A stretch of 37,571 bases of DNA, taken from contig JALXEW010000273.1 of NCBI GenBank assembly GCA_027069285.1, forward strand, positions 1 through 37,571, read 5' to 3'. Of the stretch, positions 10,318 to 17,572 are shown piece after piece. Every line of letters starts with the position of its first letter. The first letter of the stretch is position 1. Made by a program: the position numbers and the translations under genes. Source of the DNA: Ardenticatenia bacterium. Its GTDB lineage: Bacteria; Chloroflexota; Anaerolineae; Aggregatilineales; JALXEW01. The notes under the pieces are model-generated. The model ran no database searches. It saw only the letters and a program-made list of their open reading frames with translations, and had not been told where the DNA came from.

Positions 10318-11835
10318 TTATATATCGTATATCTGGCCGAACTTTTGGCGCAGATACCCCATGAAGGATCGTATCTGGATAGGCTCGCCGGTTGCGCGTT
10401 CCACCAACTCGGTCGGCATATACTTACGCCCGTGGTGGTGGATATTTTCCCTCATCCATCCGAGCAGCGTCCCGAACTCACCTCGCTCGATCTCCGACGG
10501 TATATCCGGATGTTCCTCCAGCGCCCTATCGTAAAGCTGTGCCGAGATCAAATTGCCCAGGGAATACGTTGGGAAATAACCTATAGCGCCCATTGACCAA
10601 TGGATGTCTTGCAAAATGCCCAGGGCGTCATTTGGCGGAGTCAGGCCCAGGAACTCATCCATTTTAGCGTTCCAGGCATCCGGTGCCTGATCCACCGTGA
10701 CCGTGCCGTCGATCAACTCATTTTCCAGCTCAAAGCGCAGCATGATGTGCAGGTTATAGCTCACCTCATCCGCGTCGACCCTGATATAGCCGGGCGCCAC
10801 CTTATTGATCGCCCGATAGAACGCATCCAACTTCACATCGCCGAGCTGATCTGGGAAAATCTCTTGCAGGCGGGGGTAGAAAGCGTGCCAGAACTCCCGG
10901 CTGCGCCCGACGATATTCTCCCACAGCCGGGATTGGCTCTCGTGTATCCCCAGGGACGTGCCATCTGCCAGGATAGAGCCTTCCAACTCCTGGGCGATAC
11001 CCTGCTCGTACATCGCGTGGCCTGCCTCGTGGATCGAGCTGAAGAGCGCCGACGTGAGAGAATCCGGCTCATACCTGGTCGTGATCCGCACGTCATTGAT
11101 CGAGAACGCGATCGTGAACGGATGTGCCGAGACATCCTGCCTGCCGCGCTCGAAATCGTACCCGATCTGTCTTATCACCTCGATTGCGAATTGCTCCTGC
11201 TTCTTCACATCGAAGTGCTGGTGCAGGAACGAATCGTCCACCGAGTCGGCCTGCTTGAAAATAGCCTGGGCCAGCGGAACCAACTCCTTCCTGAGCGCCC
11301 CGAATATCTCCCTGACCTGGGCCGTTTTCATCCCCGGCTCATATTCATCCAACAGCGCGTCGTACGGACAATCCTCGTATCCGAGATATTCCGCCTTGCG
11401 CAGATTCAGATCGATCATCTTAGCCAGCCAGGGCTTGAATATTGAGTAATCGGCCTCCTCCTTAGCCTTGACCCACTCACCGTGTGCCAGAGCTGCCGTG
11501 CGGGACATTTCCTCCACCCAATCCGGTGGCAGCTTAACCGCCAGGTCATAATCCCGCCTGGCCACGCGCAGGAGAGCGGCATCATCGCTATCGTAATCCA
11601 GCCCCTCGGCCTCCGTCTCCGCCGCCTCCAGCAGTCGGCCAGTTTCCTCAGACGTGAACAACTCGTGTGCCAGTCGGGAAAGGGTTGAGACCTGCTCTGC
11701 GCGGGCATTTGTGCCGCCGGGCGGCATATACGTTTGCTGATCCCAACGCAAAACCGCAGTGGCGGCCCGGATTCTATGCACCTCGCCGAGCCTTGCCTTA
11801 AGCTTTTGCAGACTTTCCATGTCGAGAATCTCCAT
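10318..11835 (-). CDS. M32 family metallocarboxypeptidase
   Basis: HEAGH zinc motif (SSIHEAGHAMYEQG), GTSLGIHESQSRLWEN, DEVSYNLHIMLRFELE. An alternative start at 11820 is plausible. Confidence 0.93.
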   Translation of the reverse strand: MEILDMESLQKLKARLGEVHRIRAATAVLRWDQQTYMPPGGTNARAEQVSTLSRLAHELFTSEETGRLLEAAETEAEGLDYDSDDAALLRVARRDYDLAVKLPPDWVEEMSRTAALAHGEWVKAKEEADYSIFKPWLAKMIDLNLRKAEYLGYEDCPYDALLDEYEPGMKTAQVREIFGALRKELVPLAQAIFKQADSVDDSFLHQHFDVKKQEQFAIEVIRQIGYDFERGRQDVSAHPFTIAFSINDVRITTRYEPDSLTSALFSSIHEAGHAMYEQGIAQELEGSILADGTSLGIHESQSRLWENIVGRSREFWHAFYPRLQEIFPDQLGDVKLDAFYRAINKVAPGYIRVDADEVSYNLHIMLRFELENELIDGTVTVDQAPDAWNAKMDEFLGLTPPNDALGILQDIHWSMGAIGYFPTYSLGNLISAQLYDRALEEHPDIPSEIERGEFGTLLGWMRENIHHHGRKYMPTELVERATGEPIQIRSFMGYLRQKFGQIYDI

Positions 11836-12361
11836 GTGGTGCTCTATACGCCGCGAACGAAGCAGCCGCCAGCCCCGATGCCAGAGCCATCACCTCTGGC
11901 CAGAGGCTACCGTCCTGAGCCGCGCACATCCAAAAGGCCGCAATCAGCCCAGCAGCCGTGGCGACCGCCTCGAACGCATTATATATCAGCGCCAACGCTA
12001 TGTACAGGCAAATGACAATACTAAGTGCGATCCACACCTGGGAGAAAAGCGCAGACGTCCTCCCGTAGAACGGGGCGTGAATCAGAGCAAAACCGTTCCA
12101 GCCCCTGGGGAAAAGATCGAAGCACAGATGCACTGCGTTGGCCAGCCCAAACCCAATTGCGAAACCCCTTGAGGCGAACGACCCGTGTCTGGGAGTGGGG
12201 GCAAAAGCCAGCAGCGGTAGAATGGCCCCATGCGTGAGCATTGAGCGATGCACCAGGAAGCCCAACTGCAAATCCAGATCCGGCACTCGCAAACCCGACC
12301 ATATCCCAAAGGCCAGCAGAACCACGCCTATCGCCTGGGAAGCGGGACGTTTACCGGACAT
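11798..12361 (-). CDS. Membrane protein, YdjM/DUF457-like metal-dependent hydrolase family
   Basis: Several TM segments; HRSMLTHGAILPLLAF resembles the HRG-x-THS motif of that family; overlaps the M32 start. Confidence 0.5.
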   Translation of the reverse strand: MSGKRPASQAIGVVLLAFGIWSGLRVPDLDLQLGFLVHRSMLTHGAILPLLAFAPTPRHGSFASRGFAIGFGLANAVHLCFDLFPRGWNGFALIHAPFYGRTSALFSQVWIALSIVICLYIALALIYNAFEAVATAAGLIAAFWMCAAQDGSLWPEVMALASGLAAASFAAYRAPHGDSRHGKSAKA

Positions 12362-12376: not shown

Positions 12377-12790
12377 TTACAGAACCTTGAAGACCTTTGC
12401 CAGGGGTTCCCCGTATATACTCATCTCCCATTCGCATACCCATCCGAAAGGCGTCATCGTCACATCGTAACCGGTGCGGCGAAGGCGTTCGGCAGCCCCT
12501 TGCAAAAATCGGTCTGCGAACTCAGGTGGGGCATCGCTTTCCGAAAGGTGCGCGAACGAGTGCAAGACGATATTCCTGAAACCCCTCTTATTGGCCAACC
12601 ACTTCACATTCTTGACGAAACGGGTTTCCAGCTTTGGATCGTCCTCATCGCCCTCCTCGGCGTGGACGAAGATGACAGCAGCATCCCTGACCTCGGTATG
12701 CTCATCGGGATCGGCATCATCGGCGTCTTGCAGCACCTTCTGATATGGATTGAACGCGAATCGCTTAGCCATGAACATCAAAATGCGCAC
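12377..12790 (-). CDS. Stand-alone archaeal-type threonyl-tRNA synthetase editing domain (tRNA-Thr_ED-like, DTD-like fold)
   Basis: GTG start at 12790 with SD GGAGG. Protein VRILMFMAKRFAFNPYQKV...AAVIFVHAEEGDEDDP...VLHSFAHLSESDAPPEFA...YDVTMTPFGWVCEWEMSIYGEPLAKVFKVL matches the archaeal ThrRS N-terminal editing domain (E-x-GDE, YAHLS, APFGWYK...GHPLSE). No synthetase domain follows. Confidence 0.8.
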   Translation of the reverse strand: MRILMFMAKRFAFNPYQKVLQDADDADPDEHTEVRDAAVIFVHAEEGDEDDPKLETRFVKNVKWLANKRGFRNIVLHSFAHLSESDAPPEFADRFLQGAAERLRRTGYDVTMTPFGWVCEWEMSIYGEPLAKVFKVL

Positions 12791-12791
12791 C

Positions 12792-15700
12792 TCATACCTC
12801 CGGTTGGTGTCCGATGGGCAAACTGAAGTAAAACGTACTGCCCTTGCCGACCTCACTTTGCGCCCAGATACGGCCCCCGTGTTGCTCCACGATAGACTTG
12901 GCGATTGCCAGGCCCAAGCCCGTTCCCTCGATCTCACCTGCCCTATCACGGTCAAGCCGGTAAAACTTCTCGAATATACGCGGCAAATCCCTATCCGGGA
13001 TACCCAGACCGGTATCCTCCACGCTGATGACCACCTCGTCGCCGGATACATGGGCCGAGATCGTGACCCTGCCGCCTTCGGGCGTATACTTGATCGCATT
13101 GCTGAGCAAATTATCCAGCACCTGGCGGATCCGTCCCTCATCGCCCCTGACGGTTGGCAGGCCGGAAATCCCGTCGGTTGCCAGCTCTATACCCTTCCTG
13201 GCAGCGGAATCTGCATACCTGGATGCCGACTCCATGATCAGCGACGGTAACCTCACGTCCCCTATCGCCAACCCGATCCCGGCCTCGATCTTGCCCAGGT
13301 CCAGCAAATCATCGATCAGATCGCGCATCGCCTGCACATTATCCCGCATCTTCTCCAGGTAAGTTTTACCCTTCTCCTCGACCAGGTTTTGCATCTCCAG
13401 CAGGTCAACATAGCCTGCGATCACCGAGAGCGGATTCTTCAAATCATGTGACACAGTAGCGACGAAATCGCTTTTCATCTGATCCAACTCCTTGAAGTGT
13501 GTCACATCATTGAAGACCGCCACATAACCGATCACATTCCCGTCGGCATCCGATGCCGGGCTTAAGCTGGCGGCCAGAGCCCGCCCATTTGGGAGCGAAA
13601 GCTCGAACGCGCGCGGCTGCTTCGTCCTCAACATCGAGTTGACCTCTTTAGGGAACGGCGGGTGGGGGATCGCCTCGTATAGTGGCTTGCCGATCACCAC
13701 CTCCCGATTCACCCCCAGCAGATAGTGTGCCGATGGATTGACCAGCGTGACCTTGCCATGTGCATCCGTTGCCAGTACCGCGTCGGCGGCGCTATTCAAA
13801 ATAGCCTCCAGATAGCGCTTGGTGCGTTCCACCCTGTTGAAGAGCGTGGCATTTTCCAGCGCCACTGCTATCTGTATGCCGATGATCCTGGCGATTTCCA
13901 CGTCCTCTGGTGAGAAAATATGAGTCGGCCTCTTGGAATCCAGCCCTATCGTGCCGACCAGCTCGCCTTTGACCACCATCGGCACGATCATCATCGTCTT
14001 TATGCCGAGCCTTGCCAGAGTCTCTCTATTTGGCCCAAGCCGTGGGTTTTCGGCCACATTTTCCACGATCATCACCTGTGGGTTGGTGAGCATATCCTTC
14101 ATCAGGGGGTAATCCCTCAGCAGGATATGGACTCCCAATGCGCCCCAGTTCGGATACTCGGCCACCACGGTGCCGGATTCCGGCAGATTATCCCATAGCA
14201 GAATGCCACAGTGATCCACGTGCAAAAGTCGCACGATCTGCCTGGCGGCGTTATTCAGCACACTCTGTGTATCCAGCGTCGAGATCAACTCGGATACCTG
14301 GTGGAGTGAGGCAAGGCGATGGGCGTATACCTCCAATGCCTCCAGCGCCTCCTCACGTTCCGCGAAGAGCCTGGCCCGTTGTATCGCAGCGGCGGCCTGA
14401 TCGGCAAACGCCTGTACCAGCGAGACATGCTCATCCCGGTATCTGCCTGGCTCCTCGGCCCCCACTCCCAACACACCTATTGGCTTCCCCTGGAAGACCA
14501 ACGGCGCCCCTATCCACGACCTGATCTGCAGGCATCCCCTGGAGACCCACCTGGAGTCATCCTGAGTGTCGGCGATCAGGATAGGCTTGCCGGTTTCCAG
14601 CAGCTCCTTGTATAGCGGGTACGAGTCCACAGTCTGCACGCATGGGGTCGCATCATACACCGGCGGCTTGGAGACGGTACGGGCCATCCTATCGCCTTCC
14701 AGGAGCCACAGACTGGCCCTATCATATTCCACTATGCGGGCAAGCTGATCCAGGATCGACTCCAATACCTCGTCCAGGTCCATCGAAGAGGCGATCGCTT
14801 GCGAGATCTCCAAAAGCGTCCTGGCCGTCTCTCGGTATAACTTCAACCGGGCGCGTTCATGTTCACCGGTTACATCCCTTATCGTCACCACATAACTTGT
14901 CACGTCCCCTTGCGGTGAAAGATTCGGGATCACCTCTATCGAATAAAACTCCCCATCGTGCTCGATCTCGGTGCTACCGCCCATCTTATCCAGGGCGCAT
15001 CTGCGCACCGTATCGTACAGCCACCCCGGCATCACATCCGATGCAGCTTTCCTGGCTCCCACCTCCGGCAGCAGATACCCGGCCTGTCGGTTGGCCAGCA
15101 CCACATCCAGCTCCGGGCTTAATATGAGGATGGCGGTCGGCAGGCTATCTATCGCCGTCCTGATATTCCCGATCTCAGATGTCAGCAGCCCGCTCTGAAG
15201 CACCCCATAGCCTATCACCATCAGCGCGACAACCGAAGCGAATGCGTATACCATAAGGCTGTGCTCGTATGACCTGAGCACTATCATGCCCAACATCACC
15301 AATGCGCCGGGTGTCACCAGCAGCAGGTAGAGGGATGCCCGCCAGAGCCTGTCCCTGGGGCCTTTGACCAGGCGATATATCATCAAAGCGATCCCAACCA
15401 GGGCCAGCGCCGCATTCCATCCCAATATCAGCGTATTCGCCGTCGTGAAAATTATCTCCGGGCCAGACTCGGTGAGCAGAGTATCGTTCCAGCTCGTGTA
15501 CGGCGGGATAACACTATCCGCCAGCATGATCGCATTCAGCGCCGTTGCCCCGCCCACCACCCCGTAGACGATCGCCTTCCACACAGGCCCGCTCCGCACC
15601 GGCGAGTCCGGCTCGAACAGCAGCATCGCCACCACCATGAGCGTCAACCCGGTTCCCCACGGCAGGATCAGCATCAGCACCTGCTGCATATGTCGCAGGA

Positions 15701-15875
15701 GCGTCTCGTCATATACATCAAACATGGCTATAGTCAGCACGATCGCGGTGGTGGCCAGCGCGGTGATGATCGCGAACAGGCGGTTAGGCCGACCGGATGG
15801 GTTTAGCCAGTACACCCGGCTTCCCAAAGCCACCAGGGCTATAAGAGGGATTATCAGGAGATGTCCCAGCATCAT
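12792..15875 (-). CDS. Membrane sensor histidine kinase (7TM N-terminus, PAS, two GAF, PAS, HisKA, HATPase_c)
   Basis: DFVATVSHDLKNPLSVIAGYVDLLE (HisKA), DNLLSNAIKYTPEGG (N box), DTGLGIPD, GTGLGLAIAKSIVEQHGG; N-terminal hydrophobic helices; GAF-like repeats. Confidence 0.93.
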   Translation of the reverse strand: MMLGHLLIIPLIALVALGSRVYWLNPSGRPNRLFAIITALATTAIVLTIAMFDVYDETLLRHMQQVLMLILPWGTGLTLMVVAMLLFEPDSPVRSGPVWKAIVYGVVGGATALNAIMLADSVIPPYTSWNDTLLTESGPEIIFTTANTLILGWNAALALVGIALMIYRLVKGPRDRLWRASLYLLLVTPGALVMLGMIVLRSYEHSLMVYAFASVVALMVIGYGVLQSGLLTSEIGNIRTAIDSLPTAILILSPELDVVLANRQAGYLLPEVGARKAASDVMPGWLYDTVRRCALDKMGGSTEIEHDGEFYSIEVIPNLSPQGDVTSYVVTIRDVTGEHERARLKLYRETARTLLEISQAIASSMDLDEVLESILDQLARIVEYDRASLWLLEGDRMARTVSKPPVYDATPCVQTVDSYPLYKELLETGKPILIADTQDDSRWVSRGCLQIRSWIGAPLVFQGKPIGVLGVGAEEPGRYRDEHVSLVQAFADQAAAAIQRARLFAEREEALEALEVYAHRLASLHQVSELISTLDTQSVLNNAARQIVRLLHVDHCGILLWDNLPESGTVVAEYPNWGALGVHILLRDYPLMKDMLTNPQVMIVENVAENPRLGPNRETLARLGIKTMMIVPMVVKGELVGTIGLDSKRPTHIFSPEDVEIARIIGIQIAVALENATLFNRVERTKRYLEAILNSAADAVLATDAHGKVTLVNPSAHYLLGVNREVVIGKPLYEAIPHPPFPKEVNSMLRTKQPRAFELSLPNGRALAASLSPASDADGNVIGYVAVFNDVTHFKELDQMKSDFVATVSHDLKNPLSVIAGYVDLLEMQNLVEEKGKTYLEKMRDNVQAMRDLIDDLLDLGKIEAGIGLAIGDVRLPSLIMESASRYADSAARKGIELATDGISGLPTVRGDEGRIRQVLDNLLSNAIKYTPEGGRVTISAHVSGDEVVISVEDTGLGIPDRDLPRIFEKFYRLDRDRAGEIEGTGLGLAIAKSIVEQHGGRIWAQSEVGKGSTFYFSLPIGHQPEV

Positions 15876-16577: not shown

Positions 16578-16916
16578 ATGAGCAAATCACCAAATCCGCG
16601 CCAGCTGAAACTGGAGATACCCGCCTCGGTGAACGCCACATATGCCAACTTCGTATTGATAAGCCACTCGCCGTCCGAATTCGTGCTGGACTTCGCGCAG
16701 ATATTGCCAGGGGTACCGCAGGCGCGGGTTTTCGCCAGGATCGTGCTCACCCCCACCAACGCCAAACTGCTTTACGACGCCCTGGGCGCGAACCTGGAAA
16801 AATACGAAGCCAAATTCTCCAAGATCAAAACCCCGCCCAGGCCGCCGTCCCTGGCCGATCAACTTTTCAGCAGCGTCAAACCACCTGAGCCACCTGAAAG
16901 CGGAGGCGAGGAGTGA
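16578..16916 (+). CDS. DUF3467 family protein
   Basis: Small protein with ANFVLISHSPSEFVLDFAQILPG...ARIVLTPTNAKLLYDALGANLEKYE, typical of DUF3467. Confidence 0.8.
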   Translation: MSKSPNPRQLKLEIPASVNATYANFVLISHSPSEFVLDFAQILPGVPQARVFARIVLTPTNAKLLYDALGANLEKYEAKFSKIKTPPRPPSLADQLFSSVKPPEPPESGGEE

Positions 16917-17572
16917 GCCTGCGTGAGACGACTGCCATCCTGAGCGAGATCGGCGAGCGGATACGCGAGGGCATGGAAGAGAAAAACCACGCCCGCGAGA
17001 TCGCGCTCGAACGCTCCCGCCACCTCATCCGCTTCTGCGCCACCGCCATCCAGGCCGTTCACAGGGGCGATTGGGAGACGGCAGAACTCCACCTGGCCGA
17101 AGCGGAAAAAGTAGCGACCGAACTTCTTGCCGAGACCGAGGCACATCCGGACATACGCTCCGCCGGATATACCCAGGATGCTCTCAAAGAATACGCCGAA
17201 GCGCGTCTCACATACGCCTTTGTCAGGGACATAGCCCCCCCGTCGCCAAGTGAGATATTAGTCGATGGAGCGGCCTACCTCAACGGCCTGGCAGAGGCCG
17301 CCTCGGAACTGCGCCGCAGCATCCTGGACCTTATCCGCAGAGACCAATTTAGCGAGGCCGAAAGACTCCTGGCGCTCATGGACGGGGTATACGGCCTGCT
17401 CGTCACGTTTGACTTCCCGGACATGATCTCCGGCGGGCTGAGACGCCGGGTGGATTCAATGCGCATGGTACTCGAACGTACCCGTGGTGACCTGACCGTC
17501 GCGTTGCGCCAGCAGAACTTGCAAGAGGCCCTGCGCCGTCTCGAATCCCGGCTGAGAGAGGATGAGCGGTGA
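16913..17572 (+). CDS. Translin family protein (bacterial/archaeal type)
   Basis: All-helical: ALERSRHLIRFCATAIQAVHRGDWETAELHLAEAE...HPDIRSAGYTQDALKEYAEARLTYA...DFPDMISGGLRRRVDSMRMVLERTRGDLTVALRQ. GTGA overlap with DUF3467. Confidence 0.8.
   Translation: MSLRETTAILSEIGERIREGMEEKNHAREIALERSRHLIRFCATAIQAVHRGDWETAELHLAEAEKVATELLAETEAHPDIRSAGYTQDALKEYAEARLTYAFVRDIAPPSPSEILVDGAAYLNGLAEAASELRRSILDLIRRDQFSEAERLLALMDGVYGLLVTFDFPDMISGGLRRRVDSMRMVLERTRGDLTVALRQQNLQEALRRLESRLREDER

Follow-up and report, generated by a model that had tools for sequence, protein, structure and literature searches.

Does a bacterium encode the editing domain of archaeal threonyl-tRNA synthetase (ThrRS) as a protein of its own, and what might such a protein do? 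The question is raised by a short gene in the window, that is, the whole stretch of 37,571 nucleotides analysed here (contig JALXEW010000273.1 of an Ardenticatenia bacterium). The gene lies on the (-) strand at 12377..12790, stop codon included, and encodes 137 aa from a GTG start. An earlier note on this DNA had held that the ORF track hides the gene behind spurious upstream codons, and the 254-aa ORF of the mechanical list (12377-13141) is indeed a run-on, in which about 117 codons ahead of the gene, overlapping the histidine kinase gene upstream, are joined to it. The start proposed in that note, GTG 12790, is upheld because a Shine-Dalgarno-like GGAGG, read from the sequence at 12797..12801 (-), precedes it with a 6-nt spacer and because the ATG of homologues aligns with the same residue. 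The gene is single-copy in the genome, and the segments EEGDEDDP, HSFAHLS and TPFGWVCEWEMSIYGEPLAKV are all present in the translation of 12790-12377.

The protein matches PF08915 end to end (residues 1-136 of 137 to profile positions 1-136 of 137, E = 1e-38), with 132.9 bits at a gathering cut-off of 30.2 bits, compared with 188 bits for the Pyrococcus abyssi domain. No other Pfam family was found in it up to E = 1, and the Pfam search gave no synthetase or anticodon-binding domain. With phmmer it retrieved the editing domains of M. jannaschii (E 1.8e-12), P. abyssi (E 2.3e-11 to 1.5e-10) and A. pernix (E about 1e-8), while the NCBIfam models of full-length ThrRS and of the Ser-tRNAThr hydrolase were matched in their editing part only and far below cut-off. 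An AF2 monomer model based on an input alignment of 80 sequences reached a pLDDT of 96.7 and a pTM of 0.91, and Foldseek placed this model closest to the N-terminal domain (NTD) of P. abyssi ThrRS among PDB structures (TM 0.92-0.94), followed by the NTDs of M. jannaschii and A. pernix (TM 0.88-0.90) and only then by DTD and mouse ATD (TM about 0.7). Sequence and predicted fold together confirm the protein as a free-standing editing domain of archaeal ThrRS type in a bacterium.

The gene is neither a lone transfer nor an oddity of one bacterial genome. A scan of genome contigs with the single protein as query gave no relative; an alignment-based scan gave 452 confirmed loci, of which 80 were kept for further survey. 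The kept loci belong to Chloroflexota, Planctomycetota, Myxococcota and other 'Deltaproteobacteria', Pseudomonadota, Acidobacteriota, Bipolaricaulota, Nitrospirota and Thermodesulfobacteriota; in all, hundreds of loci from at least eight bacterial phyla encode a relative. Those read are single-domain proteins of about 136 aa, and all that were examined are free-standing. The spread is patchy: none of the 60 nearest genomes, from the same order, has the gene, which was found above cut-off in 48/396 genomes of the class, in 20 of 301 genomes sampled across the phylum and in 10/149 genomes of the phylum of G443, titled Planctomycetota; the class and G443-phylum counts show that the gene is dispensable in most relatives. 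Viral contigs, phage records and plasmid records yielded no relative. A quick tree, with few columns, many open forks and two sequences on its archaeal side, set the bacterial proteins apart from the archaeal ones across a long branch. Several phyla are intermixed in it, and the window protein lies nearest to Chloroflexi proteins, its closest relatives at 66-67% identity, with Gammaproteobacteria close by. The picture is that of an accessory gene with frequent gain and loss, probably also transferred between phyla. Two subfamilies can be told apart: subfamily I, to which the window protein belongs, reads MKLLMFQAKRFW...TPFGYFCEWELSVYGESLAKVWK, and subfamily II reads MRxLIWHVDxF...FGWFNxLExxAKGHPLSRxAR (L021, L029, L165-L171 and others).

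What sets the bacterial family apart is its active site, which we describe in P. abyssi (Pab) numbering, the alignment being ungapped through this region. In the archaeal domains, Lys121 positions the catalytic water, and the mutants K121M, K116M and K122M of the P. abyssi, A. pernix and M. jannaschii domains are all severely impaired; Glu134 enters the site from the other subunit and binds the substrate amine, both residues lie <6 A from the scissile bond, and catalysis is by the 2'-OH of the tRNA (Ahmad et al. 2015, PMC4491819). P. abyssi and A. pernix tolerate the loss of Tyr120 and Glu134, and their Y120A/E134A double mutants keep Ser/Thr specificity, while M. jannaschii needs Glu135, since E135A inactivates its NTD (PMC4491819). 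For the archaeal conservation of Lys121 and Glu134 we rely on that study, the archaeal sequences compared here being those in the PDB. The segment TPFGWVCEWEMSIYGEPLAKV, taken as a hallmark in the earlier note, is thus present but departs from the archaeal enzymes: the window protein has Val118-Cys119 (codons 12434..12439, (-)) in place of Tyr120-Lys121 and Lys132 (codon 12395..12397, (-)) in place of the cross-subunit Glu134. These changes are general. The Pfam profile yielded 72 distinct sequences from Chloroflexota and Planctomycetota; not one of them has Lys at position 121, which is Cys in 39, Asn in 24, Ser in 4, Thr in 3 and His in 2, or Glu at position 134, which is Lys in 44, Arg in 27 and Gln in 1. 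In a wider sample of 110, Lys121 is again found in 0/110 and position 134 is Lys in 95, Arg in 14 and Gln in 1, so that a basic residue stands there in 71/72 and 109/110 sequences. By comparison, Glu46, Asp49, Phe81, His83 and Gly118 are invariant in 72/72, the PFG loop is largely retained and Gly129 is nearly invariant across phyla. The equivalent of His83, His81 of the window protein (codon 12548..12550, (-)), is found in 110/110 and 72/72 sequences, with the qualification that the seed pattern of the 80 loci, LHSF[TA]HL, partly fixes His79 and His83 while leaving residues 121 and 134 unaffected.

Judged by these alignments, the bacterial site is under selection and not in decay, because His83 and Gly118 are invariant and the PFG loop is mostly kept while a basic residue 134 is nearly fixed and Lys121 is gone throughout. 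The family appears as one in which the scaffold for RNA-based chemistry is kept, the water-positioning Lys is absent and a basic residue replaces the partner subunit's Glu. Of the two points on which the earlier note had staked the assignment, the profile match is strong, but other residues stand throughout the sampled bacterial family at two pocket positions, those of Lys121 and Glu134. A zinc site, for which the HxxxH spacing of HSFxH and Cys119 might be read, was also considered and rejected, the Cys being Asn, Ser, Thr or Leu in many members; moreover, the first His corresponds to Pab Tyr79, which was among the positions redesigned in 4S0J and related entries, along with residues 11, 42 and 123.

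The surroundings of the gene differ among lineages. In the window it follows a GAF/PAS sensor histidine kinase gene (12792..15875, (-)), and the two genes probably form one transcription unit because the TGA of the kinase (12794-12792) ends only 1 nt before the GTG, a gap that also suggests translational coupling; the kinase is no conserved partner elsewhere in the neighbour surveys. Downstream, 15 nt past the stop codon, starts a gene for a hydrophobic 187-aa protein without a Pfam family (11798..12361, (-)), followed by a Peptidase M32 carboxypeptidase gene (10318..11835, (-)). Elsewhere in the window, at 16913-17572 (+), a 219-aa protein with a weak Translin match (PF01997, E 0.034, below cut-off) follows a DUF3467 gene (16578-16916) and is possibly a distant bacterial translin. 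No general operon partner is common to the 80 loci surveyed. Within subfamily I, an M19 membrane dipeptidase gene stands immediately upstream in several Anaerolineae with a gap of 1-13 nt (L036, L038, L039, L049, L054 and L101), Pfam-confirmed in six, a serine dehydratase gene lies directly downstream in two of these (L049 and L054), a glutamine amidotransferase reading as TrpG, behind TrpE, is the neighbour in seven 'Deltaproteobacteria', and three or four Anaerolineae have a class-II synthetase that resembles AsnRS beside the gene. Subfamily II has a same-strand cluster of thioredoxin, Zn-ribbon, FrmR/CsoR-type repressor, thioredoxin-like, editing-domain, CoA-binding and OsmC genes in four genera of one family (example L191:4116-7198), the thioredoxin-like, or thiol-oxidoreductase-like, member being assigned by eye with no Pfam hit. 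As a separate observation, an ORF cut by the contig start in a Muproteobacterium (L055:1-615, (+)) looks AlaX/AlaRS-editing-like by eye (YPMGGGQPGD) and lies upstream of the editing-domain gene at a distance of 78 nt, possibly forming a trans-editing cluster with it.

We propose, at about an even chance, that the protein is a second-tier, trans-acting aminoacyl-tRNA deacylase of DTD fold, which most likely clears Ser (or Ala/Gly) from tRNA-Thr. It would work as a stand-alone dimer and bind mischarged tRNA by its 3' end, mainly Ser- and possibly Ala- or Gly-tRNAThr that has escaped ThrRS or is resampled after it. The ester would be hydrolysed with the help of the A76 2'-OH, as in the archaeal ThrRS NTD; the partner subunit's Lys/Arg134 may replace the same-subunit Lys121 as the basic side chain that positions the water, and Glu/Asp130 possibly takes over the contact with the substrate amine in most members. 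The likeliest selective advantage would be a back-up under oxidative stress, because the bacterial ThrRS N2 site depends on a catalytic cysteine and this chemistry does not. Cys182 of the bacterial ThrRS editing site is peroxide-sensitive (PMC4041444), and animal ATD, another factor of DTD fold, backs up oxidation-sensitive ThrRS editing (PMC7302879); together with the redox cluster of subfamily II, these precedents suggest a role of this kind. For the window's own subfamily the support is indirect, the redox operon being found only in subfamily II and in one family, and the argument from oxidation-proof chemistry is weaker there because most members of subfamily I, the window protein with its C119 included, have an active-site Cys. 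The fullest form of the proposal is decidedly doubtful: a trans-editing family, widespread in bacteria, whose essential Lys has moved to the partner subunit, forming an obligate-dimer, cysteine-independent site that backs up N2 once this has been oxidised, as a counterpart of ATD. Trans-acting proofreading, as the earlier note had suggested, is plausible, but hydrolysis of Ser-tRNAThr is not to be assumed because no sampled member of the family keeps Lys121 or Glu134; given the effects of K121M and E135A (PMC4491819), the bacterial pocket may not act on this substrate, and Ser is already cleared by ThrRS N2.

The state of ThrRS in the carriers bears on one alternative, that the protein stands in for a defective editing site, the part played by ThrRS-ed in some Crenarchaea. 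While separate editing proteins are known from archaea (Korencic 2004, as cited in PMC5424206), the genome's own ThrRS (597 aa, L032:1144-2937) has an intact bacterial N2 site with the motifs RHSAAH and DLCRGPH, thus no lost function is being filled, and among >40 ThrRS genes from carriers and non-carriers HxxxH is retained in every complete gene and CxGPH in all except one, which has CRGNH (G446); this makes replacement very improbable. Whether or not the genome carries the gene, Chloroflexota ThrRS begins directly at N2. Two carriers of family f52 hold two ThrRS genes each, in tandem in G321 (C1:1257797-1261533, both copies with intact N2 motifs) and on C750 and C379 in G251. A place in the SepRS/SepCysS pathway of RNA-dependent cysteine synthesis, like that of standalone archaeal tRNA-Thr-ED genes, would agree with the archaeal linkage and with SepRS fusions in some bacteria (PMC5424206, PMC8762117), yet SepCysS (TIGR02539) was above cut-off in 0/39 carrier genomes, that of the window included, and SepRS-fused domains reportedly keep the serine motif, which the free-standing bacterial ones do not, so we regard this as exceedingly improbable. 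The chance of archaeal contamination is likewise close to nil: the assembly is metagenome-like, with 320 contigs and a contamination estimate of 2.5%, but only 1 nt separates the gene from the bacterial histidine kinase gene ahead of it on a 37.9-kb contig, its closest relatives are from Chloroflexi and the gene recurs across the class.

Two further alternatives concern what the altered pocket does. It is possible, if somewhat unlikely, that the protein is a deacylase of DTD fold for a substrate other than L-Ser-tRNAThr, for example a tRNA mischarged with an acidic residue, a D-amino acid or a non-proteinogenic analogue of Thr or Ser. The replacement of Lys121 and Glu134 throughout the sample, with fold and His83 persisting, fits such a change, as do the lineage-specific neighbours (M19 in six, TrpG-like in seven and AsnRS-like in three loci), which suggest ties to amino-acid or peptide metabolism, and stand-alone editors of analogues are known, e.g. 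the canavanyl-tRNAArg deacylase (PMC10018355). On the other hand, an identical swap over many phyla favours one shared activity, and the retained Ser/Thr specificity of the archaeal double mutants argues against a new one. A role as DTD substitute was rejected: a canonical DTD is encoded separately in this genome (G000:C139), most carriers have one, and its absence (5/48 carriers vs 34/348 non-carriers) does not correlate with the gene, which also counts against a changed substrate. A non-catalytic descendant, binding aminoacyl-tRNA or nucleotide for regulation or ester protection, seems improbable. The loss of the water-positioning Lys, the binding of cognate Thr analogues by archaeal NTDs without hydrolysis (PMC4491819) and the coupling to a sensor kinase would suit it, but His83, Gly118, Gly129 and the PFG loop at the RNA-protein interface are invariant or nearly so across phyla, the tRNA 2'-OH does the catalysis in the DTD-like fold, and the kinase is not conserved as a neighbour.

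The editing domain and its trans-acting use are already known from archaea, and the annotation as such is not new either, public pipelines labelling proteins of this kind 'threonyl-tRNA synthetase editing domain-containing protein'. The open-licence PubMed Central papers searched hold no study of the free-standing bacterial family, and the residue swap, the breadth and the co-existence with intact N2 editing appear to be undescribed. Pfam describes the domain as archaea-specific, and the leading study argued that, for lack of side-chain roles, the fold was held back from new functional contexts (PMC4491819). The domain's occurrence as a stand-alone gene in many phyla, with two pocket residues fixedly changed and beside a fully equipped bacterial ThrRS, offers a natural experiment on the residues that the fold requires, and threonine codons in bacteria may turn out to have a second layer of proofreading.

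Among known systems, DTD (PF02580) and ATD share the fold and the lack of Lys at 121, where DTD has Met (PMC4491819), but the window protein has no PF02580 match up to E = 1 and lacks the adjacent Gly-cisPro motif of DTD, with GEP instead of GP. ThrRS-ed, or A. pernix ThrRS-2, which hydrolyses Ser-tRNAThr in trans (NF011500/PRK14938), likewise has its editing domain apart from the synthetase; unlike the window protein and genome, it carries a C-terminal anticodon-binding domain and has an editing-less partner ThrRS, and its model scores the window protein at 61 bits against a cut-off of 362. Standalone tRNA-Thr-ED proteins of archaea are single-domain PF08915 proteins too, and the bacterial occurrences described are SepRS fusions; the archaeal genes lie near SepCysS, which the carriers here are without, and the SepRS fusions keep the serine-recognition residues that the free-standing bacterial family has changed (PMC5424206, PMC8762117). 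Closest is the archaeal ThrRS NTD itself (1Y2Q/3PD4; M. jannaschii 4RRF), with which the window protein shares the fold (TM 0.88-0.94), the full-length PF08915 match, Glu46, Asp49, His83, Gly118 and Gly129 and, in most members of its family, the PFG loop, and from which it differs in being unfused and about 24% identical to Pab, in having Val, Cys and Lys for Tyr120, Lys121 and Glu134, and in belonging to bacterial hosts whose own ThrRS edits with N2.
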